NCBI RefSeq assembly: GCF_014197445.1
Contig: NZ_JACIFO010000014.1
Location: 1-34,344 of the forward strand
Source: Mesonia hippocampi
Lineage (GTDB): Bacteria; Bacteroidota; Bacteroidia; Flavobacteriales; Flavobacteriaceae
Length of the DNA stretch: 34,344 nt
Reading direction: 5' to 3'
Each line of letters starts with the position of its first letter. Within the stretch, counting starts at the first letter, position 1. The notes below the pieces were generated by a model. The model did not search any database, was not told the DNA's origin, and saw only the letters and a program-made list of their open reading frames with translations. The translations under genes were made by a program, and so were the position numbers. This document shows positions 6,289-34,344 of this stretch, piece by piece.

Positions 6289-6291
6289 CAA

Positions 6292-19038: not shown

Positions 19039-19084
19039 TTGCATTAAAAATCAGTTTATATAGTTTCTAGAAAACTTCTATTCA

Positions 19085-19122
19085 ATAAGGCTATCTTTTT
19101 TGATAGCCTTATCTAGTTTTAT
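19085..19122 (+). terminator. Intrinsic terminator of the polyamine operon
   Basis: ATAAGGCTATC (19085-19095) pairs perfectly with GATAGCCTTAT (19102-19112) around a T6 loop. The T-rich CTAGTTTTATTT follows. Confidence 0.75.
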
Positions 19123-19256
19123 TTCCCGTAAGAAAACTAAAAAAATAGACGCTATAAATTATTACAACAAGCCTTTACAATTGCTAAATCAGGGATTCCT
19201 GGTAATAAAAATGTACCAAAATTAGTCTGAAAATATTTGGTTTTTAACTCAGTTCT

Positions 19257-20288
19257 TTGTTGGGCATAGTTATTTTTTTAGAGTCCAATTCATTATTTCG
19301 TTCAAAGCCTCTTTGTCCATTTTATAAAGTGATGTTCCCGCTTTTGCATTTTTTTCAGTCAGCCAATGATTAAGTCCGTCCATTATTTTTATTTGGATTG
19401 TCGAATTATTAAACGATTCAAGCAATTCGATTTCAGATTTTGGGTTTATAAACTTGTCATTTTCTCCAATAATATATAAGACAGGAATATCTATGTTTCT
19501 GTAAGTTTCCTCGTAGTTTTGTTTAACGTGGTCGATATGTGCAGGACTAATAAATTTGTAAAAGTCTTTTTTAAATCCGTTTTCCTTTGCAACTATCTTG
19601 ACTTTTTGTCTTATAATCTTAATATCATCGTTATTAACAATTATCGGATAAATTAAATTTAATAATTCTACAACTTGTTCTTGGGTTTTTCCTTTAATTC
19701 TATAAAATTCACTTATATTATTAATAGTTTGATATTTAAAAAATGTACCATATTTCTCAACTGGTGTTCCCATTTGAATGAGAAAATCAATATTCGGATT
19801 TTTCTTGTATGCTCCAATTGAAGCAATTCCTCCCAAGCTATGACCTAAAACACCAATTTTATGAGATTTAGTGAAATCTAATTTCCTTAATTCCCAGATT
19901 GCAAATGTCAAGTCATCCGTTAATGAAGTAGCGGAAGTATTAAATTTACCTTCGGATTTTCCAATTCCACGTTCGTCAAATCGGTAAACTGCAATTCCAT
20001 TTTTTAAAAATTCTTCGGCTAAAACAAAATGAGCATATCTTGTATCACGTCCACTTCCTGGAACAATTACAACAATTTTATCGAAATCCGATTTGGGTGT
20101 TATTAAAGTTCCAGAGAGTTTGATATTTTCATCTGTATTTTGAAAATCAATTTCTTGAAAGTTATAATTTTCTTTTTTGCTTATTTCTCGTTCGTATTCA
20201 AAAATATTTTGAGAAAATCCATTAAAAGAGATAGTCAAAAAAATCAGAAATATGATGTGAATACAGATTTTTTTCATAATTGTGGGCA
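19257..20288. repeat. Short direct repeats bracketing the alpha/beta hydrolase gene
   Basis: TTGTTGGGCA at 19257-19266 and ATTGTGGGCA at 20279-20288 lie immediately outside the gene on both sides in the same orientation; they align with one gap. Such GGGCA-type edges resemble single-gene cassette borders in Flavobacteriaceae. The GTTGGGC at the left also fits the integron core GTTRRRY. No integrase is present. Confidence 0.4.
19270..20277 (-). CDS. Secreted alpha/beta hydrolase
   Basis: A 335-residue exported hydrolase: the signal peptide is MKKICIHIIFLIFLTI and continues to about residue 22 (FSQ). The fold is the dienelactone-hydrolase/acyl-aminoacyl-peptidase type. Visible parts are the oxyanion strand IVVIVPGSGRDTRY, the nucleophile elbow GHSLGG (near residue 145), the Asp-bearing GENDKFI and the catalytic His in LNHWL near the C-terminus. 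The substrate is unknown (ester or peptide). A longer frame begins with TTG at 20289, but the ATG at 20277 starts a proper signal peptide. It is a lone gene on the minus strand with cassette-like border repeats. Confidence 0.82.
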   Translation of the reverse strand: MKKICIHIIFLIFLTISFNGFSQNIFEYEREISKKENYNFQEIDFQNTDENIKLSGTLITPKSDFDKIVVIVPGSGRDTRYAHFVLAEEFLKNGIAVYRFDERGIGKSEGKFNTSATSLTDDLTFAIWELRKLDFTKSHKIGVLGHSLGGIASIGAYKKNPNIDFLIQMGTPVEKYGTFFKYQTINNISEFYRIKGKTQEQVVELLNLIYPIIVNNDDIKIIRQKVKIVAKENGFKKDFYKFISPAHIDHVKQNYEETYRNIDIPVLYIIGENDKFINPKSEIELLESFNNSTIQIKIMDGLNHWLTEKNAKAGTSLYKMDKEALNEIMNWTLKK

Positions 20289-20499
20289 ACTTCTATATAT
20301 CCTCAAATATATATAACTTTTTATGTTAAAACAAAAGGGGGTATAAAAGCCTAAGAGGGTTTGGTTAAAATGTGTAAGCAAAAAGCATTATTACATTTAC
20401 TTTTTTTAGTTCACGACCTTTTATTTCCTAATAGTGTTCATGAATTATTTTAAACATTCATTTTTTTTATCGATAAAAAAACGAATCAAAAAAATCTAG

Positions 20500-20670
20500 T
20501 GCCTTTAAAGGAAATTTTTACGAATACATTCGTAAAAACCGCTTATTTGCTTATCGCTACATGCCATTTTCGCCTATGGCGAAAGCACTTTCGCTTGCAA
20601 ATAGCTATTTCTAAAGGCCCAGGAAAAATGTATAAATACATTTTTAAAAAGATTTTCCTTTTTTACAGAC
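20500..20670 (+). repeat. Repeat module A, copy 1
   Basis: Contains four hairpins: TTTTTACGAAT/ATTCGTAAAAA, TTTCGCC/GGCGAAA, GCGAAAG/CTTTCGC and AAAAATGTAT/ATACATTTTT. The outer arms are GCCTTTA and TAAAGGC. Copy 2 is nearly identical. Confidence 0.85.
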
Positions 20671-20695
20671 AATTTTCGTGATGCCGAAAAACCCA

Positions 20696-20890
20696 ACAGT
20701 TTTGCAGAAATAGCTGTAAATCCCAGTGGAAGTGCGTCTTTGCATCGCAAAGACAAAGCATGAAACGCCAGATTTAGCAGCGGTTTTAAAACTTGCTTTT
20801 AAAAATTTCCTTAAAACGGTCTTGACTTTTTGGTTCGTTTTGTGTCAAGACAAAATGAACGGATAATTAACTTTAGTACACTTACTTTTT
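20696..20890 (+). repeat. Repeat module B, copy 1
   Basis: Carries hairpin GTCTTTGC/GCAAAGAC (20736-20754) with a variable loop, and two competing hairpins: GTCTTGAC/GTCAAGAC (20819-20851) and GTTCGTTTTGT/ACAAAATGAAC. The other copies are at 32010, 32437 and 32878. Confidence 0.85.
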
Positions 20891-20893
20891 ACC

Positions 20894-21059
20894 ATTGTCG
20901 TAAAAAGTAACAAAAAAGACTAGGCTACCGAATCTTGTCTTAAATTTATTACTCGGAAGCTAAATTTTAGAGAACTCGTATTGGCAAATCAATACTCAAA
21001 CAGCCTAAAATTTTAACGCTTCTTTCGTGGCAAATTTTACAGACAATTTTCGTGATGCC
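20894..21059 (+). repeat. Repeat module C, copy 1
   Basis: A long foldback: AGGCT near the 5' end faces AGCCT near the 3' end, AAATTTTAG faces CTAAAATTT, and GTATTG faces CAATAC at the tip. The tail reads ACAGACAATTTTCGTGATGC. Confidence 0.85.
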
Positions 21060-21160
21060 AGAAAAAAATGTATTAGTTCACGAATCTTTTATTTGCTAGT
21101 GGTGTTCATGAATCAACAAAGTTGATTTCATCGATAAAAAAACGAATCAAAAAAATCTAG

Positions 21161-21330
21161 TGCCTTTAAAGGAAATTTTTACGAATACATTCGTAAAAGC
21201 CGCTTATTTGCTTATCGCTACATGCCATTTTCGCCTATGACGAAAGCACTTTCGCTTGCAAATAGCTATTTCTAAAGGCCCAGGAAAAATGTATAAATAC
21301 ATTTTAAAAAGGTTTTCCTTTTTTACAGAT
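21161..21330 (+). repeat. Repeat module A, copy 2
   Basis: Nearly identical to the copy at 20500. It ends abruptly at TTTTACAGA without the shared tail, so the left array stops here. Confidence 0.85.
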
Positions 21331-21428
21331 GTTTTTTGTAATTCTATAAATACTTACAAATGTATTTTTTAACACTTTTATGAGATTTAGAAAGAAAACA
21401 GGTCTTTTTTGAGTGAAAAAACAAAAAT

Positions 21429-21470
21429 AATCCCTTAAAGATATGTTTTAATCCCTTAAGTATAAGTTTC
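21429..21470. promoter_or_regulatory. Tandem 21-bp direct repeat, candidate AraC-family operator
   Basis: AATCCCTTAAAGATATGTTTT (21429-21449) is followed at once by a second copy (21450-21470) identical at 17 of 21 positions. Two abutting 21-bp half-sites on the same helix face are what AraC-type dimers commonly bind. The array ends 56 bp before the first gene of the operon that encodes an AraC-type regulator. Autoregulation is inferred. Confidence 0.6.
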
Positions 21471-21526
21471 TAGACCTCGAATGTCAATTTTAACTCCGAA
21501 CTTTACTAATTATAAATACAGGTATT

Positions 21527-21904
21527 ATGGTCGTTAAATATTATCCACATTCTCTAGGGAGTTTTTACTTTAAACAAGAAATTTTATTCTTCAAATATAA
21601 ACCCGCTCAGGATGTTAATCTATCACAAGCTAAAAGTGTAACAAAACTCCGTTTAAGATTACAAAACAACAGGGCTTATCCCCTATTTTGTTTTGCTTCT
21701 AATCTGCTTTATATAGAAAGAGATGCACGTGTTTATTTCGCTAATCAAGGTGTTTTATTAACCAAAGCCGTTTGTTTTTTTACAAAGCATGAAGCAACCA
21801 CAGCCATTTTTCACTTCTTTTCGCTTATTCATAAACCTAGTATTCCTGTATTAATAACCCCTAATAAAGAAAATGGAATAAGCTTTTTAAAAGATTTTAC
21901 CTAA
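21527..21904 (+). CDS. DUF7793-like protein (STAS/SpoIIAA-type fold)
   Basis: A 125-residue cytoplasmic protein. Residues from about 45 resemble small Bacteroidota proteins classed as DUF7793 or STAS-like: NRAYPLFCFASN, then DARVYFANQGVLLTKAV, then a strand and HKPSIPVLI, ending with a helix that contains SFLKDF. Function is unknown, but such proteins often sit beside PAS/AraC regulators, as here; the regulator begins 13 bp later, and an operator-like tandem repeat lies upstream. A partner or ligand-sensing role for the regulator is possible. The family assignment is from memory of the pattern and is moderate. Confidence 0.6.
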   Translation: MVVKYYPHSLGSFYFKQEILFFKYKPAQDVNLSQAKSVTKLRLRLQNNRAYPLFCFASNLLYIERDARVYFANQGVLLTKAVCFFTKHEATTAIFHFFSLIHKPSIPVLITPNKENGISFLKDFT

Positions 21905-21917
21905 AACCTTATTTGAT

Positions 21918-22865
21918 ATGACTTGCCAAAAAGATGATAAACGTATAGCTTTTATCTATAAAATGTTGTTAGCTTGGACTAAGGGCAAGTTTTCTTATCG
22001 TATTCCTAAAACAGGTAAAAATGATAAAACCGAAGCCATTATAAATTTATTAAACTTACTTACCGAAGAAATAAAACATTCTTTTTACTACCATATATAC
22101 ACTGCTGGACAAGCTAAATTTAGACCTAGGTTAATGTGGGGCTTCATTCTAAATTTAGATAACCAAATAAAAGCAACCATAGGTAAACCTCCTACTGTAT
22201 TATCTACTAAGCTAAATAACTTAAGGCCTACAGCTTACTTTAACGATTTACTAACAAATAAATCTAAAGTTATCTGGAGGAAAACGCTTTCCCGATTACA
22301 AAAAAATAAAAACGATACTTCCGTACACCAAGAACTATCATTTAAAACAAAAAATAAATTAACATATACGGTTGACTCAACTATTAATCTTATTAAAAAC
22401 ACCCATACTGGTAAACAACAGCTAATTGTTTTTAACATCGATATTTGTGCTATGCCTCTTCATGCCTATTCTGTATCTACAAATAAAAGTAATTTTCTTT
22501 CGCTACCACATACTAGCAAACGTATTATAGATAAGCATACAGATATTAAAGCATTACACCTAATACATCAACATTTAAAAGAGAACCTAAACTCTCCCTT
22601 CCCCTCTTTAAAGAAACTAACAAAAGATTATGGTATTAATGAATTTAAGTTAAAAATAGGTTTTAAGCAGTTCTTCAATACTACAGTTTCTAAATTTCAT
22701 CAAGAGCAACGTTTAAATAAAGCTCATCAGCTTATACGGTTTACCCATTTATCTATACAAGAGATTGCTTTTGATACAGGTTTTAATAGTATTTCTCACT
22801 TCTCTAAAAGCTTTAAAAAACAATTTGGTTATAATCCCAGCCAGCTTAGAAATCGCTTCAAGTAA
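21918..22865 (+). CDS. PAS-domain AraC-family transcriptional regulator
   Basis: A 315-residue regulator. The N-terminal part (about 15-60) resembles a HAMP-like linker (GKFSYRI, then INLLNLLTEEI), followed by a PAS-like domain (about 60-180). The C-terminal AraC DNA-binding domain (about 215-315) holds two helix-turn-helix units: the first around KKLTKDYGINEFKLKIGFK, the second LSIQEIAFDTGFNSISHFSKSF, closed by FGYNPSQLR. There is no transmembrane segment, so it is cytosolic. It follows the DUF7793-like gene, and the MauE/DUF6520 genes come next on the same strand. The tandem 21-bp repeat upstream is its most likely binding site. Confidence 0.85.
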   Translation: MTCQKDDKRIAFIYKMLLAWTKGKFSYRIPKTGKNDKTEAIINLLNLLTEEIKHSFYYHIYTAGQAKFRPRLMWGFILNLDNQIKATIGKPPTVLSTKLNNLRPTAYFNDLLTNKSKVIWRKTLSRLQKNKNDTSVHQELSFKTKNKLTYTVDSTINLIKNTHTGKQQLIVFNIDICAMPLHAYSVSTNKSNFLSLPHTSKRIIDKHTDIKALHLIHQHLKENLNSPFPSLKKLTKDYGINEFKLKIGFKQFFNTTVSKFHQEQRLNKAHQLIRFTHLSIQEIAFDTGFNSISHFSKSFKKQFGYNPSQLRNRFK

Positions 22866-22966
22866 GCTAACTAAAACGTTTTTATACGTTTACATCAAAT
22901 AAAAATACCTAAAAGACAAAACAGCCTCAATGTTATGGAATAATTTTATTGCTATAAGTTTTCAAT

Positions 22967-24460
22967 ATGTTTAATTATCATGTCCATAATCATAGTCGTA
23001 TAGCAGAATATCTTTGTTATGCATTTGTTTTGTTATTTGTTTATGCCGCTGTAAGTAAATTACTCGACTTTAACAGCTTTCAGAATCAACTAGGGCAATC
23101 ACCTCTATTAAGTGCCTATGCTGTTTGGGTAGCTTGGGCAATCCCTTTATCAGAAATTTTAATCGCCGTTGCCTTGGTGGTTCCGCAATGGAGGTGGTTT
23201 GGTTTACATGCATTTTTTACGATGATGTTTATGTTTACCGTCTATATTGTTATCATATTAAACTTTTCTGATTTTATTCCCTGTTCCTGTGGGGGTGTGT
23301 TAGAAAAATTAGGCTGGACAGAACATTTAATTTTCAATATCATCTTTATTTTACTATCAGGTATTGCAATATTTTTAGTTTCTAATCTCGAGCCCACAAA
23401 AAAGATTCTTCTAAAACTCTTCCTGCTCGCTATTATGGCAATAGCTGTAGTAACTACACTCTTTCTAAGTTCAGAAAAACAAATTAAACGCAACAATGCT
23501 TTTATAAGAAAATATATACCTCATCCGATAACGGAAATCGGTCGATATAATTTAAAATACAACTCCTACTATATTGCTGGTATAGACAACAAAACTATCT
23601 ACCTAGGTAATTACACCGCACCATTATCTATGACAACTTTAAACACCTCTTTTAACCAAATAAATGAATTTCAAGTAGCTATAGACAGTATGCATTTACC
23701 TTACAGAAGGGTAACTATAAAAGTAATTCCGCCTTACTTTTACGTAGCAGATGGTACTGTACCTATTATTTTTAAAGGGGAAACACAAAATTGGAAAGGA
23801 AAGGTAAACGCTTATAAAAAAGCCTACTTTAATCAATTTATAGTAGCTGACTCTACAAGAATTGGTATTTCTAGTATAAGTAGTAAAACACAAGCTAATA
23901 TTTTAGGAATTATTGAAAAGAAAAAAGACTTTATCGATTTTAACCTAAATACAGAAATCCTAAATAAACAAACAGACGGCAAGTTTGGTTCCGATGGTTT
24001 ACTTCTTTGGAACAAACATTTACAGCGCTTTATATACACCTATTTCTATAAAAACAGTTATGAAGTAGCTGATAAGAATTTAACACATCAATTTACAGGA
24101 AAAACAATAGATACCATAAGCAAGCCTATTTTAGATATTGCTCACTATACTGCTACTAACCAATATAAACTAGGAGGAAATGCTGTATTTGTAAACAGGC
24201 AAACCGCAACCTATGCCAATTACCTATACATCTACAGTACCCGATTAGGGAAATATGAAAATAGTATAAAAACAGCCTCTATAATTGATGTTTATAACCT
24301 TACCGATAACACCTACGCCTTTAGTTTTTACCTTTTTCATCAAAAAGATAAAAAGCTAAGTGCTTTTACAATTTATAAAGATTTATTGGTGGCCATAGTA
24401 GATGATACATTATGGCTTTACCAATTAAAGCCGAAGTATTTTAACTCCGGCTTTAAGTAA
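22967..24460 (+). CDS. MauE/DoxX-type redox membrane protein with large C-terminal domain
   Basis: A 497-residue membrane protein. The N-terminal four-helix MauE/DoxX domain (about 14-160) has a CSCGG motif with Cys106 and Cys108 at the end of the third helix, as in MauE, which helps form disulfides of methylamine dehydrogenase. After a further helix (about 146-166) come about 320 residues rich in beta strands, probably periplasmic and possibly propeller-like; I know no name for it. The next gene, 79 bp on, encodes a secreted four-Cys protein, a plausible disulfide substrate. No methylamine dehydrogenase genes are present. The ATG at 22967 follows a 101-bp gap after the regulator. Confidence 0.75.
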   Translation: MFNYHVHNHSRIAEYLCYAFVLLFVYAAVSKLLDFNSFQNQLGQSPLLSAYAVWVAWAIPLSEILIAVALVVPQWRWFGLHAFFTMMFMFTVYIVIILNFSDFIPCSCGGVLEKLGWTEHLIFNIIFILLSGIAIFLVSNLEPTKKILLKLFLLAIMAIAVVTTLFLSSEKQIKRNNAFIRKYIPHPITEIGRYNLKYNSYYIAGIDNKTIYLGNYTAPLSMTTLNTSFNQINEFQVAIDSMHLPYRRVTIKVIPPYFYVADGTVPIIFKGETQNWKGKVNAYKKAYFNQFIVADSTRIGISSISSKTQANILGIIEKKKDFIDFNLNTEILNKQTDGKFGSDGLLLWNKHLQRFIYTYFYKNSYEVADKNLTHQFTGKTIDTISKPILDIAHYTATNQYKLGGNAVFVNRQTATYANYLYIYSTRLGKYENSIKTASIIDVYNLTDNTYAFSFYLFHQKDKKLSAFTIYKDLLVAIVDDTLWLYQLKPKYFNSGFK

Positions 24461-24513
24461 ACATATACTGCGCAGTATCAGGCAGAAGACCGAACGCCTG
24501 TTGAAAGATTCGG
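24426..24513 (+). promoter_or_regulatory. Hairpins and palindrome in front of the DUF6520-type gene
   Basis: In order: hairpin AAAGCCG/CGGCTTT overlapping the end of the redox gene (24426-24455), a perfect 14-bp palindrome ATACTGCGCAGTAT (24465-24478), hairpin CAGGC/GCCTG (24479-24500), and the competing CCGAA (24490-24494) with TTCGG (24509-24513). This could be an RNA processing or stabilising site, or an operator, letting the small gene be expressed more than the redox gene. Confidence 0.5.
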
Positions 24514-24539
24514 TTATCAATTCAATAAAATTTAAAATT

Positions 24540-24809
24540 ATGAAAACTAAATTTTTAAAATTAGGGCTGCCCTTGGCAGTATTTATGTTGGCAATTGTAT
24601 TTGCTTTTGCCTCTAACTCGACCTCCAAGGCTCAAGATACTTCTTTAGCTTTGGTACCTGGTTATATTTTCCAAGATGGAAAATGTCAGCAAGTAGCTAC
24701 TTGTAGTACTGTACCAGGACCTCTTTGTATGGTAGGTACAAAAATTGCTCGCAATAAAATCAATGAGACCCAATGTGGGTTAGAGCAGTTATACCATTGG
24801 AGCAATTAA
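24540..24809 (+). CDS. Small secreted four-cysteine protein, DUF6520-type
   Basis: An 89-residue exported protein that fits the DUF6520 family of Bacteroidota. The signal peptide covers about 1-25 (KTKFLKLGLPLAVFMLAIVF) and probably ends near SKAQ. The mature part is 58 residues with Cys49, Cys55, Cys63 and Cys79, which could make two disulfides. It lies 79 bp after the redox protein gene. The ATG at 24540 is preferred over the longer frame at 24501, because only this start begins with a signal peptide. A strong hairpin terminator follows at 24816. Function is unknown; a peptide substrate, signal or structural secreted factor is possible. Confidence 0.75.
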   Translation: MKTKFLKLGLPLAVFMLAIVFAFASNSTSKAQDTSLALVPGYIFQDGKCQQVATCSTVPGPLCMVGTKIARNKINETQCGLEQLYHWSN

Positions 24810-24815
24810 CAGGGA

Positions 24816-24858
24816 TTACCTCCCCAATAAGTTTTAAAAGATTTATTAGGGAGGTATA
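24816..24858. terminator. Bidirectional terminator between convergent operons
   Basis: TTACCTCCCCAATAA (24816-24830) faces TTATTAGGGAGGTA (24843-24856), a near-perfect stem of about 14 pairs. An AT-rich tract follows on the plus strand. It separates the DUF6520-type gene from the convergent S9 peptidase gene. Confidence 0.7.
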
Positions 24859-27417
24859 TTATTTTAAATAAGTATCAAACCAATTTTTTATACGTTTAGA
24901 TAAATCCTTTTTATTTTTATTTATGCTAAGTGTATGACTTTCACCTGTATAATAAATTAGCTTTGCAGGCTTTCTTAATCTTCTAAGTGCGAGATACCCC
25001 TGAAGGCTTTGGTTAGGGTTCACATTAGTGTCTTCTTTTCCTGCCCAAATCAGGAGCGGAGTATTTACCCCTGCCATATTATGAAGCGGTGAATTTTCCA
25101 TAAATGTCTCCGAATCTTCAAAATATGATTTCTGCATCCTAAACAAGCCATTATTTTCTACCCTTATAATCTCTGAATGTCCTGTCATCTTATAAATATC
25201 AAAATAAAAACTTAAAAGGTTAAAGATTCCGGCACCTGAAACGGCTGCGGCAAATAAATCCGTTTGGGTGACAATGAAAGCTGTTTCGTAACCGCCAAAG
25301 GAATGACCTATCAACCCTATTCTTTTTTTGTCAACAGGGACTGTTTCAAGAACCTTTTTAACTGCTTTTTCAACACATTTTAAAGCAGATATTCCCGGCT
25401 TCCCTTTTTCGTAGTAGATATCAGGGAGCAAAACAAAATAATCATCAAGGGCATAATTCATTGAATTAAAACCATTTTCATTGAACAATGACGGAGGTGT
25501 AAATTTATGTAAGTAGGACGATTGCTCTTCATAAATAGAAACAATCATAGGGTATTTTTTTTCAGGGTTATAATTAACCGGATAGATCAATACCCCTTTT
25601 AAGGAATCGGCTATTTCGGTATCATAATAGATAAGCTCTTTTTTAGGCCAATTGTACTGATTCCATTGGGTATTGCTCAAAAAAACCGTTTTGGAACTCT
25701 TCTTTTTTAGGTTTTTATATACTACAGAAGATGGAATAGTTAAGCTTTGTTCCTTAAAAATAAAACTATCAGTTCCTAGCTGAAAAAGATTAGTCAATCG
25801 CCTGTCTTTAAAAACAATTTCACGGATATTATCAGTATCTTTCCATTGGTAGAACCCTGACCTTAAATTTTTAGTATTTGTAGCACTTAATAAAAGACCA
25901 TCCTTGGAGTCAATCGTGAACGTATCAAATCCGATATAATCATATCGAATTTTTTTATCATTATTACCAGTTACGATTCTAAAAACAGTATTTGACTCCC
26001 TACCTTTTGTTAGTTTTTCCTTTCTAGTGCCATTAACACTAATTTTCCATACATCATATCTATCATATACAAAAACTTCACTATCGTTTTCAGACCACCC
26101 TGCAAGCCCGTATGGTTGTGGATTATTATAATCATACTGCCCCTCTTTATAAAACCCCGCATCTAAATCTTGTGTTAAGTTAATGTGTTTTTTCTCTTTA
26201 AGGTTGTATAGCCACCAATTTTTTTCCTTGAAGTAAACAAAATAATTTCCCGTAGGAGAAAAATGCACATAACCGATTCCGGGATATTGTTTTTTAACAA
26301 TCAGTTCTTTTTCGGCTGTCTCAGTATCCAAAGCATATATATCGATAAACGGATAGTAATGAAATTTCGGTTCGTTGGAAATCACATTAAAATTCAAGGC
26401 ATACTGATAATTTGGATTAAAAACTACTTTTGGAAACTCCTCTGTTCCTAGGGGAATAACTTTATTGCTTTTAGGGCACCAAACATATAACCATGGCCCA
26501 AATTCACCTGTGTTTTCATATTTTTTTCTGGAATGAATCAATGGGTCAGAGGTGTCCCAAACTTCAACACCAGGTGTTGTATTTTTTTTACCTCTTTTAG
26601 GTACTGCATAAAAAAACACTTTATCTCCTAAATCTGATATTGATAATTTACCGTTTGTTATCTCTATTTCATCATTAATCTTTGAAAAAGCATCTGATGT
26701 TAAATGTTCAATAGTTCCTTCTTTCAAATTATAGTATGCCAAATGATGCGCTTTCTTATCCTTTGAATTATACAGTACACCCAATTTTTCTCCTGTAGCG
26801 TTCCATGTTAATCTTTGAAAACTACTATTTTTTCCACTCATTATTTTGTGACCTTTCAATGTATTCAAATCATAAATAAAAAGAGACTCCCTGCCATTCT
26901 TATGCAACACGACCGCCAAAACTTCATTGGTAGGATTTAACGAGTACGTTAGGCTTTTATCGAGTTTGTACGACTGCTTGGTAACAAGGTTTCTCAATTC
27001 CAATGTATCAGATAGGGTTTGTACCAATAAATGATTTGAAGAAGTAGAAAGGTGATAGGATTTAACTCGATTGATCGTATCAACAGATTTCTTAAGTAAA
27101 TCCACCATTAGTAAGGAGTCTGAACCAGAACGGATACAAAACCACTTATCGTTAAAACTTCCCCAATACCCTCCAGAGAAATCTAGGGTTTTCCCCGTTT
27201 CTATATGTTTAATAGAAGTAACTTCATTATCCCCAATAAAATGATGTGTACTATAGTGAATCCATTTATTGTCTTTTGATACACCAAGCAAATATAGATT
27301 TTCCCATAAACTATCCTTTTCTACAGAATATTTTTGCACCTGACCATACAAGGAAATATTACCAAAATATAAAAATAAGCTAAATGTAATTAGTAAGATT
27401 TTGATTTTACATTTCAT
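24859..27417 (-). CDS. Secreted S9 family serine peptidase (prolyl oligopeptidase type)
   Basis: An 852-residue exported peptidase. The signal peptide (about 5-24) is followed by a long beta-propeller-like region (about 30-600) and a C-terminal alpha/beta hydrolase domain. The triad is Ser706 in GHSFGGYE, Asp796 in GKEDTN and His828 in ESHTLS. The family includes dipeptidyl and acylaminoacyl peptidases that act on peptides of limited length. It is the third gene of a minus-strand operon after susC and susD, 18 bp from susD, so it probably processes peptides taken up or captured by the outer-membrane pair. Substrate specificity cannot be read. Confidence 0.88.
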   Translation of the reverse strand: MKCKIKILLITFSLFLYFGNISLYGQVQKYSVEKDSLWENLYLLGVSKDNKWIHYSTHHFIGDNEVTSIKHIETGKTLDFSGGYWGSFNDKWFCIRSGSDSLLMVDLLKKSVDTINRVKSYHLSTSSNHLLVQTLSDTLELRNLVTKQSYKLDKSLTYSLNPTNEVLAVVLHKNGRESLFIYDLNTLKGHKIMSGKNSSFQRLTWNATGEKLGVLYNSKDKKAHHLAYYNLKEGTIEHLTSDAFSKINDEIEITNGKLSISDLGDKVFFYAVPKRGKKNTTPGVEVWDTSDPLIHSRKKYENTGEFGPWLYVWCPKSNKVIPLGTEEFPKVVFNPNYQYALNFNVISNEPKFHYYPFIDIYALDTETAEKELIVKKQYPGIGYVHFSPTGNYFVYFKEKNWWLYNLKEKKHINLTQDLDAGFYKEGQYDYNNPQPYGLAGWSENDSEVFVYDRYDVWKISVNGTRKEKLTKGRESNTVFRIVTGNNDKKIRYDYIGFDTFTIDSKDGLLLSATNTKNLRSGFYQWKDTDNIREIVFKDRRLTNLFQLGTDSFIFKEQSLTIPSSVVYKNLKKKSSKTVFLSNTQWNQYNWPKKELIYYDTEIADSLKGVLIYPVNYNPEKKYPMIVSIYEEQSSYLHKFTPPSLFNENGFNSMNYALDDYFVLLPDIYYEKGKPGISALKCVEKAVKKVLETVPVDKKRIGLIGHSFGGYETAFIVTQTDLFAAAVSGAGIFNLLSFYFDIYKMTGHSEIIRVENNGLFRMQKSYFEDSETFMENSPLHNMAGVNTPLLIWAGKEDTNVNPNQSLQGYLALRRLRKPAKLIYYTGESHTLSINKNKKDLSKRIKNWFDTYLK

Positions 27418-27435
27418 AACTATTCGTTGTTTAAA

Positions 27436-28842
27436 TTAATACCCAGAATTTTGTGGGGCTAAATTGGGGTTAGTCAATAAATCTGCTTCAGGAATGGGCA
27501 ATAAAACATTCGTGGGGCTCCATCCGGGTTTAATCGGCGTTAATACTTCATCTGCAACACCAAACCTACGTATATCAAACCACCTATGCCCGTGCTCTGT
27601 AAATAACTCAAAACGCCTTTCGTTTAAAATGGCTTCCAATAAACTTTCAGTATCAGTAGCAGTGGTGTTTGCCAATCCTGCACGTTGGCGAATACGATTA
27701 AGGTCATCTTGCGCTCCACTAATATTATGCTGTCTAGCACGAGCTTCTGCACGAATTAAGTATTGTTCTGCCAAACGAAACACAATAGAATACTCCATGC
27801 TATTGCCTGTATTGGAGTATTGTTTATACTTATACGGAAAATACCAGGTGCCATTACCATCGGTAACTTCGCCTATCCAATGTGTTTTTCTTAAATCATT
27901 ACCTTCCATCGCTGCAACAAGAGTATTAGTCAATGCTACAAAAGGCGGCGGGGCCGTTACAAAAATAAAAGTGGTTCCTTCTTGACTATTTGCTCCTGTA
28001 TTTTTAGATTTTAGCTGTAAAATAGCAGAAGTACTTTCTTTTAAAAACTCATTATTTATATCGGTTTCCAAATTAAATAATAAGGTATTATCCATAAGTA
28101 AGCTGCTCTCCATTTCTGCCTCTTCCCATCGTTCCATATATAAATAAACCCTTGCTAACAGTGCAGATACCGCCCACTTATTGGCACGAATACGTTCTTC
28201 TGAAATATAGGTATCTCCTAAAAGTGTTTTAGCTTCGGTTAAATCGAGAAGAATATTTTCATAGATTGTCTCCTTTGGCATTCTTAGTACCTCCTTATTC
28301 ATTTCAAAATCTGTGGTTGTGATATAAGGTATTTCACCAAAAAGATTTATAAGGTAAAAATGCGCCAACGACCTAATGAACAAAGATTCGCCTCTCAGTT
28401 GGTTTTTAACTGACACGGATAGGTTTGGTGAAGATTCCAAACCTTCAAGTACGGCATTGCTCATATAGACCAGATTATAGGATTTGCCCCAAATAGATTC
28501 CACCCCTACATCTGATGCTACTATCTGATGATAATAGAAAGTTAGGGAAGGATCCCAGGGATTTCCATAAAATTCTAACTCATCGGTATAAAGCCCCATT
28601 AAAGCCCCCATACCAAAAGATGTCCCTGTTACCAGCACTTCATCCCTTAGTTTTGCATACATTGTAGTAACTGCTGCAGTAGCTGTTGCTTCATCTTCAT
28701 AAACTTCTTGGTGTGGTACTTGGCCAAACGGTTCATCTATTTCCAAAAAGTCTTCACAACCTGATATTAGTAATAAACAAATTAGCAAATAAATGGTTTG
28801 CTTTATTTTTTGAAGTCGGTAATATATTTTTAGTGTTTTCAT
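27436..28842 (-). CDS. SusD/RagB-like nutrient-uptake lipoprotein
   Basis: A 468-residue surface lipoprotein that forms the lid of the SusC transporter. The lipobox is LLISGC with lipidated Cys29, after a hydrophobic helix (18-27). The SusD-type TPR helices follow; FLIRAEARARQHNISGA-like and NLIRQRAGL-like segments in the C-terminal third, with a late WFDIRRFG, are typical. The downstream peptidase suggests peptide rather than glycan binding, although this is inference. Spacing to susC is 18 bp and to the peptidase 18 bp. The gene is complete. Confidence 0.94.
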   Translation of the reverse strand: MKTLKIYYRLQKIKQTIYLLICLLLISGCEDFLEIDEPFGQVPHQEVYEDEATATAAVTTMYAKLRDEVLVTGTSFGMGALMGLYTDELEFYGNPWDPSLTFYYHQIVASDVGVESIWGKSYNLVYMSNAVLEGLESSPNLSVSVKNQLRGESLFIRSLAHFYLINLFGEIPYITTTDFEMNKEVLRMPKETIYENILLDLTEAKTLLGDTYISEERIRANKWAVSALLARVYLYMERWEEAEMESSLLMDNTLLFNLETDINNEFLKESTSAILQLKSKNTGANSQEGTTFIFVTAPPPFVALTNTLVAAMEGNDLRKTHWIGEVTDGNGTWYFPYKYKQYSNTGNSMEYSIVFRLAEQYLIRAEARARQHNISGAQDDLNRIRQRAGLANTTATDTESLLEAILNERRFELFTEHGHRWFDIRRFGVADEVLTPIKPGWSPTNVLLPIPEADLLTNPNLAPQNSGY

Positions 28843-28860
28843 AATCTATATTGTATTGGT

Positions 28861-31836
28861 TTATAAATGTAGCTGCACCCCAAAGGTAATTCTCCTTAAA
28901 GGAGGCAAGAACCCGTTCATTTGTTCAGGATCTCCACCTTTAAATCGTGTAAAAGTCAATAGGTTTTGGCCTTGTACAGAAATTCGGCAAGAAGTATTGT
29001 TAGATTTGTTAAGTGGAAGTGTATAAGATAATGCCAAAGACTTTAATCTAATAAAAGAAGCGTCTGATATAGCAGCGTTACTTTGACTAAATTGTGAGTG
29101 TGCTAAAAAAGCTTCAGAATTTGCTCCCGTTGTAAACCTTTGCATCTCTGCCTGGTCTCCAGGTTTTTGCCAACGACCCAATACCGATACGGGCTGATTG
29201 GTCATAGTTCCAGGAGGTTCACTGGTGCGGTACTGGTTATATCCATCTTTCTTGACAAACTGGAAAAAAACATCCATTGCCCAATTTTTATAGCTCAGGC
29301 TATTTGAGAACCCACCGAAAAATTTTGGGGTTAGGTCGGCAATATATTGCCTATCTTCGGCAGCGGTAATCGTTCCGTCATTGTTGTAGTCTTCAAACTC
29401 AAAAAGACCAGTTTCAGGATTTACCCCTTTCAAATTATATAACTTAGCTATAGATAAAGGTTCCCCGATAACAAAGCGATTGGTATATGTAGAATTCTCA
29501 AGTCCGGGAAATCTCAATAATTCATTCTTAGGCAACGATAGGTTGAAAGAAGCTTTCCAGTCAAAGCTTTCATTTTGAATAATAGCTCCGTTTAATTCAA
29601 TTTCCCATCCTGAATTTTCCACTAAAGCGTCCAAATTAGCTTGGATTGATGTAAACCCTGTAGTACCCGGAAGGGCATAATTGATAAGCTGGTTGGAAGA
29701 ACGGTTCTTATAATAAGCGGTAGAGAATGCCATACGTTGATTAAGAAACCTAAGCTCCAGTGCAATCTCCATTTTTTTATTTTTTTCCCATTTGAAATTA
29801 GGATTATTCAATCGGGCAGGATTCAACCCAATGTTTCCATCGTAGAAATTATCATTAATGGTATAGGTCTGTAAGTATTGATAATCCCCAATTTGGTCGT
29901 TCCCTGTTACCCCATAACTCCCTCTAAGCTTCCCAAAGCTTAACCACGATAAATTAATATCTTCCGAAAAGAGCCAAGCTGCACCTACCGCCCCAAAGTT
30001 CCCATATTTATTCCCTGAACTAAAACGGCTAGAGCCATCACGCCTTCCGGTTAGGTTTACAAAGAGTTTATTTTTGTAGGCATAGTTTAACCGTGTGAAA
30101 AATGATTGAGAATTATACTGTATAATATCTTCGTTTAATACCAAAAGTGTAGTGGCTGCACTTAGGTTATATATAAGCCTGTCTGATGGAAAACCAAGCC
30201 CTGCCAATGTCTGTTTTTCTTGATTTTGTTTTTGAAAGGTACTACCTACCAATATGTTAAACACCCCATTACTTAATGTTCTATTCCAATGTAACTGAGG
30301 CTCAACTATCCAGTAATCCTTATCAGCTCCATTCAGTATAACCGTAGAATTTTCACTATCCAATCCAAAAGCTGGATCATAAACCGTATGTGGTGAAGTA
30401 ATATTATCCTGTAGGTTTGTATAACCATACCCAGAATTTACTTTTAACTCTAAGTTGTCCATCAATTTATAAGAAATCACAGCACTCGAAAACAGGCTTT
30501 TGGTTTTATTTCTATACTTTCCTTCCAATTGTGCCAAAGGGTTTGTCCACGTACTATTTTCCCAGTTTAACGCCCCTTCATCATCGTATAATTCTGGAGC
30601 ATTGGGAGCTAATCTAATAGCACTAAAAGACAAATCTGTTCCGGGTAAAAAATTGTCTTCAAGAGTATAGCCTGTATTTAGTGTTACCTGAAATCGGTCA
30701 CTGGAACTGGTATGCCGGATGTTGGAATTTATAGTAATACGATCATAATTAAAGTCTTCAGGATATACTGTAGTCTCATTTTGGTACATCCCGCTTATCA
30801 AGAACTGCGTACTTTTACTACCTCCCGACACTGAGGCTTGTAACTTACTTGTGTTGGCAGTTTCACCTACAAGTGCTTCTTGCCAATCTGTATACCTATC
30901 TTCATCCCAAGTACCGTTCACATCATAAGCATTGGCAGGATACTCCGTAATCCCATCATTAGCAAAAGCTTCCCTACGCATTTCAAGGTATTGTTCTGTG
31001 TTCATCAAATCCATTTTTCGAGTGATGGAAGCAATACCCGTACTGCTATTTATCGTAAATTTTGTTTTACCTTCTTTACCTTTTCTTGTAGTAATCAAAA
31101 CAACCCCATTTGCCCCACGAGAGCCATAAATTGCCGTAGCATCGGCATCTTTTAGTACTTCAATAGATTCTATAATGCCTGGGTTAATGGCATTTAAGGG
31201 ACTAATGTTTCCTCCTGGGATAATTGCTCCTGAAGAATTACCTGAACCTAATGTACGTGAATCATAAGGTACACCATCTATAATATACAGCGGCTCATTA
31301 CCTGCCATAATACTGTTTTGCCCTCTTATTTTCACTTCAAAACCACCACCGGGAACTCCAGAGTTTTGTACAACCTCTACCCCTGCCATACGCCCTTGCA
31401 TTGCTTCTAAAGGATTGTTTACGGGTTGGTTTTCTATCTCTTTTGCGGTAATCCTACTAATGCTCCCCGTGCGCTCTTTGTCTTTAACGGTATAATAGCC
31501 TGCATTAATAAGTACCGCAGCTAGGGTGTTGGCTTCGGGTGTTAGGTTTATTGTAAAAAATACCTGCTCTCTTACTGCTAGCTCTTGGGTTTTAAACCCT
31601 ATATAGCTAACCACCAAGGTATCGCTAGGCGATGCTTCTAGTTTAAACCTGCCTTCAAAATTGGTGGTTGTTCCTGTTGTTGTGTTTTTAAGCAGTATGT
31701 TTACCCCTGGGATGGGCATATTGCTGCTATCGGTAATTAGCCCAGATACACTTACTTGTGCGTGTATGGGCAGTGCAAAGCTGCTTAGGAGTAAGTATAT
31801 ACTACCCCTAAGGCATTGCCTAAATAAAATTTTCAT
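28861..31836 (-). CDS. SusC/RagA-type TonB-linked outer-membrane transporter
   Basis: A 991-residue outer-membrane receptor driven by TonB. In order: signal peptide (about 8-27), a CarboxypepD-reg-like domain with VSGLITDSSNMPIPGVNILL (about 29-48), the plug (about 120-250) with RGQNSIMAGNEPLYIIDGVP, and a 22-strand barrel to the C-terminus. The last residue is Leu rather than the usual Phe/aromatic. It heads a susC-susD-S9 peptidase operon. Just upstream lies a 15-bp perfect palindrome (31858-31872). No anti-sigma/ECF pair or SusE homologue is present. Confidence 0.94.
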   Translation of the reverse strand: MKILFRQCLRGSIYLLLSSFALPIHAQVSVSGLITDSSNMPIPGVNILLKNTTTGTTTNFEGRFKLEASPSDTLVVSYIGFKTQELAVREQVFFTINLTPEANTLAAVLINAGYYTVKDKERTGSISRITAKEIENQPVNNPLEAMQGRMAGVEVVQNSGVPGGGFEVKIRGQNSIMAGNEPLYIIDGVPYDSRTLGSGNSSGAIIPGGNISPLNAINPGIIESIEVLKDADATAIYGSRGANGVVLITTRKGKEGKTKFTINSSTGIASITRKMDLMNTEQYLEMRREAFANDGITEYPANAYDVNGTWDEDRYTDWQEALVGETANTSKLQASVSGGSKSTQFLISGMYQNETTVYPEDFNYDRITINSNIRHTSSSDRFQVTLNTGYTLEDNFLPGTDLSFSAIRLAPNAPELYDDEGALNWENSTWTNPLAQLEGKYRNKTKSLFSSAVISYKLMDNLELKVNSGYGYTNLQDNITSPHTVYDPAFGLDSENSTVILNGADKDYWIVEPQLHWNRTLSNGVFNILVGSTFQKQNQEKQTLAGLGFPSDRLIYNLSAATTLLVLNEDIIQYNSQSFFTRLNYAYKNKLFVNLTGRRDGSSRFSSGNKYGNFGAVGAAWLFSEDINLSWLSFGKLRGSYGVTGNDQIGDYQYLQTYTINDNFYDGNIGLNPARLNNPNFKWEKNKKMEIALELRFLNQRMAFSTAYYKNRSSNQLINYALPGTTGFTSIQANLDALVENSGWEIELNGAIIQNESFDWKASFNLSLPKNELLRFPGLENSTYTNRFVIGEPLSIAKLYNLKGVNPETGLFEFEDYNNDGTITAAEDRQYIADLTPKFFGGFSNSLSYKNWAMDVFFQFVKKDGYNQYRTSEPPGTMTNQPVSVLGRWQKPGDQAEMQRFTTGANSEAFLAHSQFSQSNAAISDASFIRLKSLALSYTLPLNKSNNTSCRISVQGQNLLTFTRFKGGDPEQMNGFLPPLRRITFGVQLHL

Positions 31837-31857
31837 AGTTTTGTGGTATTAAGTGGT

Positions 31858-31872
31858 GTACCCTATGGGTAC
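31858..31872. promoter_or_regulatory. Perfect palindrome GTACCC TAT GGGTAC upstream of susC
   Basis: A 6-bp perfect inverted repeat with a 3-bp spacer, located 22 bp upstream of the susC ATG. It could be an operator or a short 5' UTR hairpin. It does not resemble the 21-bp repeat near the AraC regulator. Confidence 0.4.
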
Positions 31873-32009
31873 GTTATTGCTTAGTTGCCTTCCTGCGGTT
31901 CGCCAAAACTTTGTGGGAAGGTTTTTTGTTTGTTTTTTACTTAACTTGTGTTTTTCTGTTTATTCGTTTTAGTGTTCATGAATCAAAAAAATTGATTTCA
32001 ACCCAACCG

Positions 32010-32205
32010 ACAGTTTTGCAGAAATAGCTGTAAATCCAGTGGAAGTGCGTCTTTGCTCTACAAAGACAAAGCATGAAACGCCAGATTTAGCAGCGGTTTT
32101 AAAACTTGTTTTTTAAAATTTCCTTAAAACGGTCTTGACTTTTTGGTTCGTTTTGTGTCAAGACAAAATGAACGGATAATTAACTTTAGTATACTTACTT
32201 TTTTT
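32010..32205 (+). repeat. Repeat module B, copy 2
   Basis: Same as copy 1; the hairpin is GTCTTTG/CAAAGAC with loop CTCTA, showing a changed loop with kept stem. Confidence 0.85.
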
Positions 32206-32260
32206 AGTTCACAAACCTTTTATTTGCTAATGGTGTTCATGAATCAACATAGTTGATTTC

Positions 32261-32426
32261 ATTGTCGTAAAAAGTAACAAAAAAGACTAGGCTGCCGAAT
32301 CTTGTCTTAAATTTATTACTCGGAAGCTAAATTTTAGAGAACTCGTATTGGCAAGCCAATACTCAAACAGCCTAAAATTTTAACGCTTCTTTCGTGTCAA
32401 ATTTTACAGACAATTTTCGTGATGCC
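32261..32426 (+). repeat. Repeat module C, copy 2
   Basis: Full-length C with tip hairpin GTATTGGC AA GCCAATAC. It has a longer stem than copy 1. Confidence 0.85.
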
Positions 32427-32436
32427 GAAAAAACCG

Positions 32437-32630
32437 ACAGTTTTGCAGAAATAGCTGTAAATCCAGTGGAAGTGCGTCTTTGCACCGCAAAGACATAGCA
32501 TGAAACGCCAGATTTAGCAGCGGTTTTAAAACTTGCTTTTAAAAATTTCCTTAAAACGGTCTTGACTTTTTGGTTCGTTTTGTGTCAAGACAAAATGAAC
32601 GAATAATAAACTTTAGTATACTTACTTTTT
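32437..32630 (+). repeat. Repeat module B, copy 3
   Basis: Hairpin GTCTTTGC ACC GCAAAGAC. It directly follows the C tail GATGCCGAAAAA. Confidence 0.85.
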
Positions 32631-32713
32631 TAGTTCATAAACCTTTTATCTGCTAATAGTGTTCATGAATCAACATAGTTGATTTCATCGATAAAAAAAC
32701 GAATCAAAAAAAT

Positions 32714-32853
32714 CTAGGCTGCCGAATCTTGTCTTAAATTTATTACTCTAAAGCTAAATTTTAGAGAACTCGTATTGGCGAACCAATACTCAAACAGCCT
32801 AAAATTTTAACGCTTCTTTCGTGGCAAATTTTACAGACAATTTTCGTGATGCC
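32714..32853 (+). repeat. Repeat module C, copy 3 (5'-shortened)
   Basis: Joined to D at CTAG, so the first ~24 bases of C (ATTGTCGTAAAAAGTAAC and a few more) are missing. The tip hairpin is GTATTGG CGAA CCAATAC. Confidence 0.8.
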
Positions 32854-32877
32854 GAAAAAATTGTTTCAACCCAACCG

Positions 32878-33072
32878 ACAGTTTTGCAGAAATAGCTGTA
32901 AATCCAGTGGAAGTGCGTCTTTGCTCAGCAAAGACAAAGCATGAAACGCCAGATTTAGCAGCGGTTTTAAAACTTGTTTTAAAAATTTCCTTAAAACGGT
33001 CTTGACTTTTTGGTTCGTTTTGTGTCAAGACAAAATGAACGGATAATTAACTTTAGTATACTTACTTTTTTT
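32878..33072 (+). repeat. Repeat module B, copy 4
   Basis: Hairpin GTCTTTGC TCA GCAAAGAC, followed by D. Confidence 0.85.
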
Positions 33073-33158
33073 AGTTCACAAACCTTTTATCTGCTAATAG
33101 TGTTCATTAATCAACATAGTTGATTTCATCGATAAAAAAACGAATCAAAAAAATCTAG

Positions 33159-33240
33159 TGCCTTTAAAGGCCCAGGAAAAATGTATAAATACATTTTTAA
33201 AAAGGTCTTCCTTTTTTACAGACAATTTTCGTGATGCCGA
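33159..33240 (+). repeat. Repeat module A, copy 3 with internal deletion
   Basis: Begins TGCCTTTAAAGG and jumps straight to CCCAGGAAAAATG. About 105 bases found in copies 1 and 2 are gone, precisely between two TAAAGG words. Confidence 0.8.
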
Positions 33241-33383
33241 AAAACCAACAGTTTTAGTTTGTTTGGTATTAAAACAAAATGAACAAAAAATAAACAGCGT
33301 ACACTTGTATTAAGTATTAAAAGTTAGGTGTTGTTGCATAGGCGTTTGTGGTATTGTTGGTTAATAATTTAATTAAACGCCAT

Positions 33384-33490
33384 AAAAAAGGCGTGGAACT
33401 CAACTTATCGGACAGAGGTACTGGTATACCGCGCAACAATAAGAGAGCCCACGCCTAGGTCGTGAGCATCTTGCTTATCTTCTCGTTGCT
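33384..33490 (-). ncRNA. Candidate structured RNA with pseudoknot and terminator-like end
   Basis: On the minus strand GCAAC (33489-33485) and ATAAG (33478-33474) pair with CTTAT (33443-33439) and GTTGC (33437-33433). GGCGTGG (33455-33449) in that loop pairs with CCACGCC (33396-33390) downstream, forming a pseudoknot topology, followed by six T residues (33389-33384). This looks like a small RNA ending in a T-run. No exact -7 box lies upstream. I cannot name the family. Confidence 0.4.
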
Positions 33491-33526
33491 AAAAATTACC
33501 AGTTTTCAGATCGATATTAAAAAGTA

Positions 33527-33630
33527 TTACAGTTCATACGAGTATTATATTTATAAAAATAATATACTGTAAACAAATATATTAAAATATTAACAACAAC
33601 AAAATAAAAATTTAATATATTTTTTGTTGT
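33527..33630. promoter_or_regulatory. AT-rich inverted repeats upstream of the XRE regulator gene
   Basis: TTACAGT (33527-33533) faces ACTGTAA (33566-33572), enclosing AGTATTAT/ATAATA. A second pair, ACAACAAAAT near 33596-33605 and ATTTTTTGTTGT ending at 33630, lies closer to the gene. These are possible autoregulatory operators of the XRE protein. Confidence 0.4.
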
Positions 33631-33654
33631 CAATTGTATTATTCTTTTTAACCT

Positions 33655-34131
33655 ATGGAAAACGTCAAACTAAAAAAGCTTTTAGCTACCATAGGAAAAA
33701 CTATAAAACAGCATCGTTTACAACAAGAACTACAACCTGAAGACATTGCTGAAATGACTAATTTAACAGCTGTTACTATTAGAAACATTGAAGCTGGTGA
33801 AGAAACTTACCTCTCCAACTTTTTGGCTGTATGTTTAGCATTAAAAATGGCACCTAAAGATATATTAGATATAGAAATAAAACTAGAACCACTCTATAAA
33901 CTCTCACAACCACGAAAAGAAAAAAGCAGACTTACCCCTAGGATTAATAAAATTTTAGGTTCAGATTTTTTCACTCAAGAGCGTACCGCTAAAGATGTTG
34001 TTAGGGAATTAGGAGCTATTTATAAAATTTCACCTTCTACTGCGGAAGTTTCTGTAATACTTAAACGGAAAGTAAAAGAAGGAAAGCTAAACATAGAAAA
34101 ACAAGGTAGATTAAATATTTATAAAAAATAA
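33655..34131 (+). CDS. XRE-family transcriptional regulator with C-terminal winged-helix-like part
   Basis: A 158-residue DNA-binding protein. Residues about 10-70 form an XRE/Cro-type helix-turn-helix (IGKTIKQHRLQQELQPEDIA, then TNLTAVTIRNIEAG). The second half (about 95-158) is basic with a helix-turn-strand pattern (SPSTAEVSVILKRKVKEG, then RLNIYKK) that looks winged-helix-like. It is a lone gene; AT-rich inverted repeats upstream suggest self-regulation. It could be the antitoxin-like half of a pair, but no toxin gene follows within the 213 bp left in the window. Confidence 0.75.
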   Translation: MENVKLKKLLATIGKTIKQHRLQQELQPEDIAEMTNLTAVTIRNIEAGEETYLSNFLAVCLALKMAPKDILDIEIKLEPLYKLSQPRKEKSRLTPRINKILGSDFFTQERTAKDVVRELGAIYKISPSTAEVSVILKRKVKEGKLNIEKQGRLNIYKK

Positions 34132-34344
34132 TAAGTCAACTTATCCATTGCATATAATGCATAGCGTTTATCTGCCTCTAAATGGTAGGTTATAAAAACA
34201 CCTCTGGTAAAGGTTATATGATATTGGGAGCTTCACCTTGGGTTTCAATCCTAGTTTCTTGGTGGAATGGTTTCGAAGTGTTACTAACGGATTAGCCCGA
34301 AGCGAACAGCAGGCGAGCCAAATTATTAAGTAACAGTGTACCCT
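34132..34344. other. Gene-free right edge
   Basis: 213 bp. Holds the near-palindrome TTGCATATAATGCAT at 34150-34164 and a GC-richer tract (GCCCGAAGCGAACAGCAGGC, around 34295-34314) unlike its neighbours. I see no complete gene or tRNA; short open frames on both strands end quickly. Confidence 0.4.

Follow-up and report, generated by a model that had tools for sequence, protein, structure and literature searches.

Repetitive extragenic palindromic (REP) sequences are thought to stabilise or uncouple cistrons at malE-malF, and enterobacterial repetitive intergenic consensus (ERIC) sequences are dispersed intergenic elements of more than 100 bp with strong structure, located in transcribed spacers and thought to affect mRNA decay. 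Pneumococcal BOX elements are modular intergenic repeats in the order boxA-boxB(n)-boxC, while the SAM-V riboswitch, telomerase RNA and ENE elements are triple-helix pseudoknot RNAs. REP sequences and bacterial interspersed mosaic elements (BIME), together with REP-associated tyrosine transposases (RAYT), appear as dispersed extragenic palindromes of 20-40 nt, and the RAYT genes of Bacteroidetes subclass 2.6 are said to be flanked by atypical structures (PMC6006769, PMC3733652). Flavo-1 RNA (RF01705) is described as a dispersed structured motif of Flavobacteriaceae (PMC2864571, PMC9723704). Here, we report on repeats in Mesonia hippocampi, in a stretch of 34,344 nt (the whole of contig NZ_JACIFO010000014.1, hereafter the window) which is contig C14 among the 26 that make up its 2.59-Mb genome. 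Two arrays of these repeats (20395-21332 and 31966-33305) had been described in an initial annotation as a BOX-like composite of four modules, A, B, C and a linker D. Comparison of the sequences indicates that they belong to a real family of structured intercistronic elements in Bacteroidota, undescribed as far as the searches reach.

On the sense strand of the element, stem P1 encloses two arms (P2-P3-P4 and P5), and a 3′ tail follows. The sequence UUGAN directly after P1 can pair with N′UCAA in the loop of a long hairpin, and the U-rich run that joins UUGAN to this hairpin matches an A-run in the hairpin stem. A model of the element (R1) was built from three B copies of the window and seven relatives, with A left out. 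A search of 79 loci gave 100 matches, fitted to the model as 85 distinct rows, in which changes on both sides were found at 44 of the 45 modelled pairs. Paired cells amounted to 94.4% in these rows against 66.1% in shuffles, and the covariation score was 0.369 against 0.090 when shuffled and 0.030-0.069 when slid. A model-free alignment of 11 sequences had double changes at 16 of 33 predicted pairs, and a 149-nt piece of B had a fold z-score of -3.95, none of 200 shuffles being as good. Outside R1, a small 5′ hairpin (TTCCGAC/GTCGGAA, TCAATTC/GAATTGA, TTTCGAC/GTCGAAA) seems by eye to be compensated too (30 elements, L216-L295).

The variable pair of the tail pseudoknot was UA in 51 cases, CG in 11, AU in 5, UG in 2 and unpaired in 11, the other four pairs being nearly constant and carrying little information, and the top pair of the tail hairpin was UA in 45, GC in 17 and CG in 16. 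The pyrimidine run was one longer than the A-run in 69 of the 76 parsed tails, with 82 unparsed rows dropped (5/4 in 61, of which 6 are ambiguous, the opposite T-run having been counted as five; 6/5 in 7; 7/6 in 1), and 7 tails departed from this rule. Such run lengths fit U.A-U triples and are no proof of them. The tail of one B copy in the window (32561..32600), whose pairing was tested across relatives, is described here as a candidate pseudoknot with a possible triple helix. The element resembles the triple-helix pseudoknot RNAs in having a pseudoknot whose U-rich run lies parallel to the A-rich strand of a stem, but differs from them in being a dispersed intercistronic repeat whose triples are suggested by run lengths.

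As to which strand forms the structure, G-U outnumbered A-C in paired columns by 189 to 33 (113 rows), and by 57 to 17 when the one conserved G-U pair was left aside (A5 rows). This excess points to the sense single strand, and a preference of the model may add to it. The fold energy of the sense strand was below that of the antisense strand in 104 of 112 elements (mean difference 6.6 kcal/mol).

The placement of the element follows the same strand. A sample of 80 named loci, selected for canonical tails out of at least 119 stretches with an exact tail match, held 89 elements, which were classed by plain open reading frame (ORF) calls. Both neighbouring genes lay within 600 nt for 58 of them, and both shared the orientation of the element in 43, the upstream gene only in 9, the downstream gene only in 5 and neither in 1, with 31 elements unresolved; the upstream gene taken singly had the same orientation in 59, the opposite in 7 and was unresolved in 23. 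When gaps up to 1400 nt were admitted, 46 sense and 2 antisense placements were counted between co-directional genes of the named relatives, and 28 and 2 when orthologous gene pairs were counted once (p 9e-7). The kind of spacer was not significantly unusual (48 co-directional, 9 convergent and 6 divergent vs 98, 20 and 32; p 0.12). The sample found with the model (112 elements) had 51 elements with both neighbours in the same and 23 with both in the opposite orientation, 10 of the 23 being from the genome of the window. The existence, structure and strand bias of the family are, on this comparative record, close to certain. The earlier guess at a structured RNA gains support from the double-sided changes and the sense bias.

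Far from being a local feature, related elements were detected by R1 at E≤0.001 in 127 of 249 Flavobacteriaceae genomes and, within the genus, in 13 of 16 genomes (own included), the carriers having 1-33 matches each. In a draw from the phylum, 80 of 345 genomes had matches at this threshold (15 belonging to the family, 7 to the order, 15 to the class and 43 to other parts of the phylum); the matches outside the family were mostly weak, and many covered only 50-100 bases or the tail alone. At the DNA level B had matches in 111 of 299 family genomes (own included), mostly to its last 70 bases, and in a few of them at full length with 74-78% identity. The exact tail matches listed included Winogradskyella, Algibacter, Olleya, Bizionia, Tamlana, Lacinutrix, Chryseobacterium, Dysgonomonas and an uncultured Saprospiraceae, and 16 one-contig genomes picked as carriers had 1 to 15 matches each. 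In a check of specificity, no match at E≤0.001 was obtained in 168,694 bases of 50 transposase loci.

The claim that the repeats are unrelated to any named family stood as well. None of the 4227 Rfam families (release 15) reached its gathering score in the window at 19000-34344 or overlapped an element at that score in 12 + 36 loci of relatives, and four further weak matches were far below the cut-offs of their models. Array 2 was not matched in plasmids, nor was the tail pattern matched exactly in viral contigs, and the exact string ACAGACAATTTTCGTGATGCC had no match in a genome contig collection that possibly does not include the M. hippocampi genome itself. No description of the element was found in the open-licence literature searched, and an earlier mention may exist elsewhere.

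Both arrays lie where the initial annotation had placed them, with the module orders D-A-B-C-D-A in array 1 and d-B-D-C-B-D-C-B-D-A-b in array 2, and its picture of interspersed, modular, palindrome-rich and non-coding repeats of a flavobacterium was borne out, no ORF of at least 80 aa (ATG, GTG or TTG starts) being found inside either array. Sequence comparison shows, however, that the four modules are not independent of one another. B makes up a structured element of about 170-190 nt, and A, when reverse-complemented and aligned with copies of relatives, has the same layout. R1, although free of A, matched the two fuller A copies of the window (E 3.1e-22 and 2.7e-18) as well as six A copies elsewhere in the genome (E 1.8e-18 to 4.8e-24), all eight on the opposite strand, and A is therefore an inverted paralogue of B. 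D is the tail of inverted A and C copies and not a separate linker. C has a different head type but the leader and tail of A; R1 does not detect it as a clear member, and its link to A consists of the leader, the tail and a closing stem with two arms in the computed fold. The stretch of 27 nt common to A and C, TACAGACAATTTTCGTGATGCCGAAAA, agrees with the earlier observation of an identical 3′ tail in both, except that it is kept only in part in one C copy and in the last A copy. At least three head types on one tail were discerned by eye among 30 aligned elements of the named genomes, so that heads appear to be exchanged on one tail there too. The features of the two arrays are as follows.

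20416..20690 (-), A copy 1: leader 20664-20690, head and P1 within 20496-20663, tail (formerly D) 20416-20497; R1 match 20451-20622 on the minus strand, 102.8 bits
20693..20865 (+), B copy 0: R1 match of 176.9 bits; part of the R1 training set
20892..21059 (-), C copy 1: short tail 20892-20922, head 20920-21038, partial leader up to 21059
21073..21345 (-), A copy 2: tail 21073-21158, leader partly kept; R1 match 21121-21283 on the minus strand, 87 bits
31970..32000 (-), tail fragment (d)
32007..32178 (+), B copy 1: R1 match of 183.4 bits; part of the R1 training set
32204..32431 (-), C copy 2: tail 32204-32289, head 32287-32405, leader 32405-32431
32434..32605 (+), B copy 2: R1 match of 186.6 bits; part of the R1 training set
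32561..32600 (+), tail of B copy 2: CTTGAC 32561-32566, T-run 32567-32571, then a hairpin with loop GTCAAG
32630..32858 (-), C copy 3: tail 32630-32715, head 32710-32832, leader 32832-32858
32875..33045 (+), B copy 3: R1 match of 183.4 bits
33071..33243 (-), A copy 3, head mostly deleted: tail 33071-33156, remains 33155-33216, leader 33217-33243
33252..33295 (+), fragment of a B tail (b): match to repeat family D6, 82%

A copy 3 has module A matches at 33155-33170 and 33165-33216, and the other B copies of the window are 96.8-97.9% identical to the reference copy. Each array is located upstream of two diverging genes, in one case a gene for an alpha/beta hydrolase and a short ORF that precedes an AraC-type regulator, in the other a SusC gene and a small helix-turn-helix (HTH) gene.

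The modules are neither confined to the window nor held to one fixed order, and further copies were found on ten contigs of the genome (C1, C2, C6, C7, C10, C12, C13, C17, C19 and C23). A DNA search with B gave 49 matches at E≤0.001, several of them at contig ends, and R1 gave 33. Since arrays sit at several contig ends, short-read assemblies are probably broken by them. In this genome, A/C copies alternate with B copies of the opposite orientation; between co-directional genes, A and C together were in sense in 9 of 10 cases and B in antisense in 13 of 14 (matches of at least 45 nt). The arrays of the window look like local amplification of tail-to-tail pairs. A BOX-like mosaic, with boxes unrelated to each other, was not supported. 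A and B are complete members of a single family, inverted relative to each other, and C has its leader and tail in common with A, which brings the arrangement nearer to a BIME-type alternation; compared by layout only, BOX elements have a set order of boxes whereas the order here varies and the modules are whole related elements in both orientations. Arrays are seen to form also in other genera, there in one orientation, as at L195, where three sense copies in tandem, with a linker that is repeated, precede trpD (positions 1-930); clusters in the fetched relatives were mostly in one orientation. On contig C23 (L032 900-4200), three single-gene units with repeated flanking stretches stand between arrays and carry BRO-N, methyltransferase and GNAT genes in a layout that looks like integron cassettes.

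In the relatives, the element recurs in certain operons. The 131 same-strand flanking proteins formed 71 clusters, among which trpG, D, C, E, F and B accounted for 35 proteins, the kynurenine pathway for 17 and an ATP-binding cassette (ABC) transporter for 13, with an ATPase cluster that may include other ABC ATPases. Matches of single members supported the names TrpG, TrpC and kynureninase, the clusters of the deaminase, kynurenine 3-monooxygenase (KMO) and trpE, D, F and B were named by eye, and the best matches of the ABC ATPase and binding protein were manganese/iron or zinc types, below their cut-offs. The loci found with the model (n=68) included 7 trp, 4 kynurenine and 1 metal ABC operon. 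In Algibacter amylolyticus (L281), near-identical elements (0.96) at 5213-5399 and 6279-6465 flank the ATPase gene of a metal ABC transporter. The ATPase gene of such a transporter is a place where cistron ratios matter, and the placement is like that of REP at malE-malF.

The spacer that is occupied differs between genera. Plain vertical inheritance within the trp operon was rejected, as copies in the same spacer of different genomes had a median similarity of 0.68 (44 pairs) against 0.67 for other spacers (382 pairs). Nine copy pairs within one genome ranged from 0.30 to 0.96 in similarity. Given the differing spacers and the lack of extra likeness in the same spacer, turnover inside favoured operons is the simpler reading, while the same pattern could arise by gene conversion or by losses from a complete set in the ancestor.

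We suggest, with function inferred and our confidence evenly divided, that this is a dispersed, transcribed intercistronic RNA element of REP/ERIC-like action which stabilises or uncouples the upstream cistron. The element would act at the RNA level, as part of the spacer within a polycistronic mRNA, where the junction and the pseudoknot, perhaps with U.A-U triples, would slow 3′-to-5′ decay or set a processing site; the upstream cistron would thereby be stabilised or uncoupled from the downstream one. A mechanism of stability or processing is in itself about an even call. Copies would have spread as a non-autonomous element by machinery not found in this analysis, and antisense copies would mostly have been lost, except in the M. 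hippocampi genome with its local amplification. The fold z-scores of sense and antisense strands were nearly equal (-3.79 vs -3.56 in 38 elements), so that their comparison offers no proof of RNA, and the apparent tail-to-tail amplification of the arrays makes an RNA function less certain in the M. hippocampi genome than in relatives. If the proposal is true, a new layer of post-transcriptional control would be added in a phylum with little-explored RNA biology, because a widespread structured element, outside Rfam in the scanned loci, sits in mRNA direction in trp, kynurenine and metal-transport operons. The element would also provide bacteria with a candidate, open to testing, for a stabiliser of the U.A-U triple-helix kind, and sister species give natural sets of filled, empty and inverted spacers.

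Most likely the element is REP- or ERIC-like at the mRNA level and, by the tests made, a member of neither. It shares with ERIC the dispersed intergenic location, the size, the strong structure and the transcribed spacers, but phylum, sequence and layout differ, and a three-way junction with a pseudoknot and a strong sense bias leave a likeness of place and kind only. With REP/BIME it shares dispersed extragenic palindromes and, in the M. hippocampi genome, alternating orientation; it is, however, 170-240 nt long with a three-way junction and a tail, not a palindrome of 20-40 nt (the GT[AG]G foot was not searched separately), and it was not found beside RAYT genes in the loci examined. Mobilisation of the RAYT/REP kind was rejected, since 50 Y1 loci of the family (30 strong Y1 matches and 20 weaker ones of RAYT-like length, many more Y1 places existing) held no element at E≤0.001 and a single weak match (L093, E 0.01), and the M. 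hippocampi genome itself has no match to the Y1 transposase (PF01797) and no RAYT gene.

In G157, distant copies share a block from near TTCCGAC to GAAC, its ends set by eye, and 1 of 9 aligned copies is without a head. One spacer is filled in three congeneric species (G157, G634 and G632), empty in three others (G642, G631 and G640) and holds a tail remnant in G644; among the filled species one has its tail interrupted and one carries another head. This presence and absence between close relatives, as known from miniature inverted-repeat transposable elements (MITE), favours the earlier guess at a non-autonomous mobile element. It also suits a selfish DNA element, MITE-like or of a single-stranded type, in which a transposase or recombinase would recognise the hairpins in their DNA form and the sense bias would reflect only the purging of harmful antisense insertions. 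The dispersed similar copies with similar ends in one genome, the arrays and tandem copies and three identical-scoring copies in G143 agree with such an origin. We consider it doubtful nonetheless, as the G-U excess points to the sense single strand, no clean target duplication was seen, and the Y1 results supply no cognate gene. Between filled and empty sites there are differences beyond the element itself; no transposase was linked to the element and no parent transposon found in a search limited to Y1.

The reading as a stabilising or uncoupling RNA competes further with an intercistronic transcription terminator or attenuator, in which P1 and the U-rich run would stop some transcripts and so grade operon expression. 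The sense strand does read P1 and then UUGAUUUUUU, mostly downstream of a gene in the same direction. This proposal is distinctly unlikely, though, given that a simple consensus scan of two regions called no terminator with a G+C-rich hairpin and T-run inside elements, that a second, strongly conserved hairpin follows the U-run, and that many downstream genes are operon partners. An equally improbable reading would have a pseudoknotted, triple-helical, phylum-wide mobile element at the RNA level, with interchangeable heads on a constant tail, spreading in sense direction into spacers, perhaps via an RNA intermediate, and repeatedly recruited by Bacteroidota to tune cistron ratios in operons of tryptophan synthesis, tryptophan breakdown and manganese/zinc transport. 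A regulatory RNA sensing tryptophan, a related metabolite or a metal in the matching operons would account for the recurrence in trp, kynurenine and Mn/Zn ABC operons of many genera and for the Bacteroid-trp leader carried by 8 of the 36 loci scanned among the 80 named ones, but is very improbable because many other gene pairs carry the element, it stands between cistrons and not in a 5′ leader, its copies in the M. hippocampi genome lie beside hydrolase, SusC and polysaccharide-type genes, and the recurrence may in part be due to common descent within a single clade.

Flavo-1, the dispersed structured motif of the same bacterial family, has a separate sequence and a model of 76 positions, and does not overlap the element. 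Five matches to it were found in 48 loci. Four lie on the opposite strand 68-98 nt upstream of an element (L181 4904-4975, L182 3600-3676, L247 6774-6860 and L281 5057-5136), and the fifth (L269) is far from one. A Flavo-1-like stretch was also noticed by eye in the polymorphic spacer. The two repeats may move, or be recruited, jointly.

A G+C-rich hairpin RNA candidate was noted in the window at 33385-33500 (-), in the stretch that separates array 2 from the HTH gene. It is without a match in Rfam and has a fold z-score of -2.54; within the genus, 12 of 16 genomes (own included) hold relatives of it, in 1-3 copies each.

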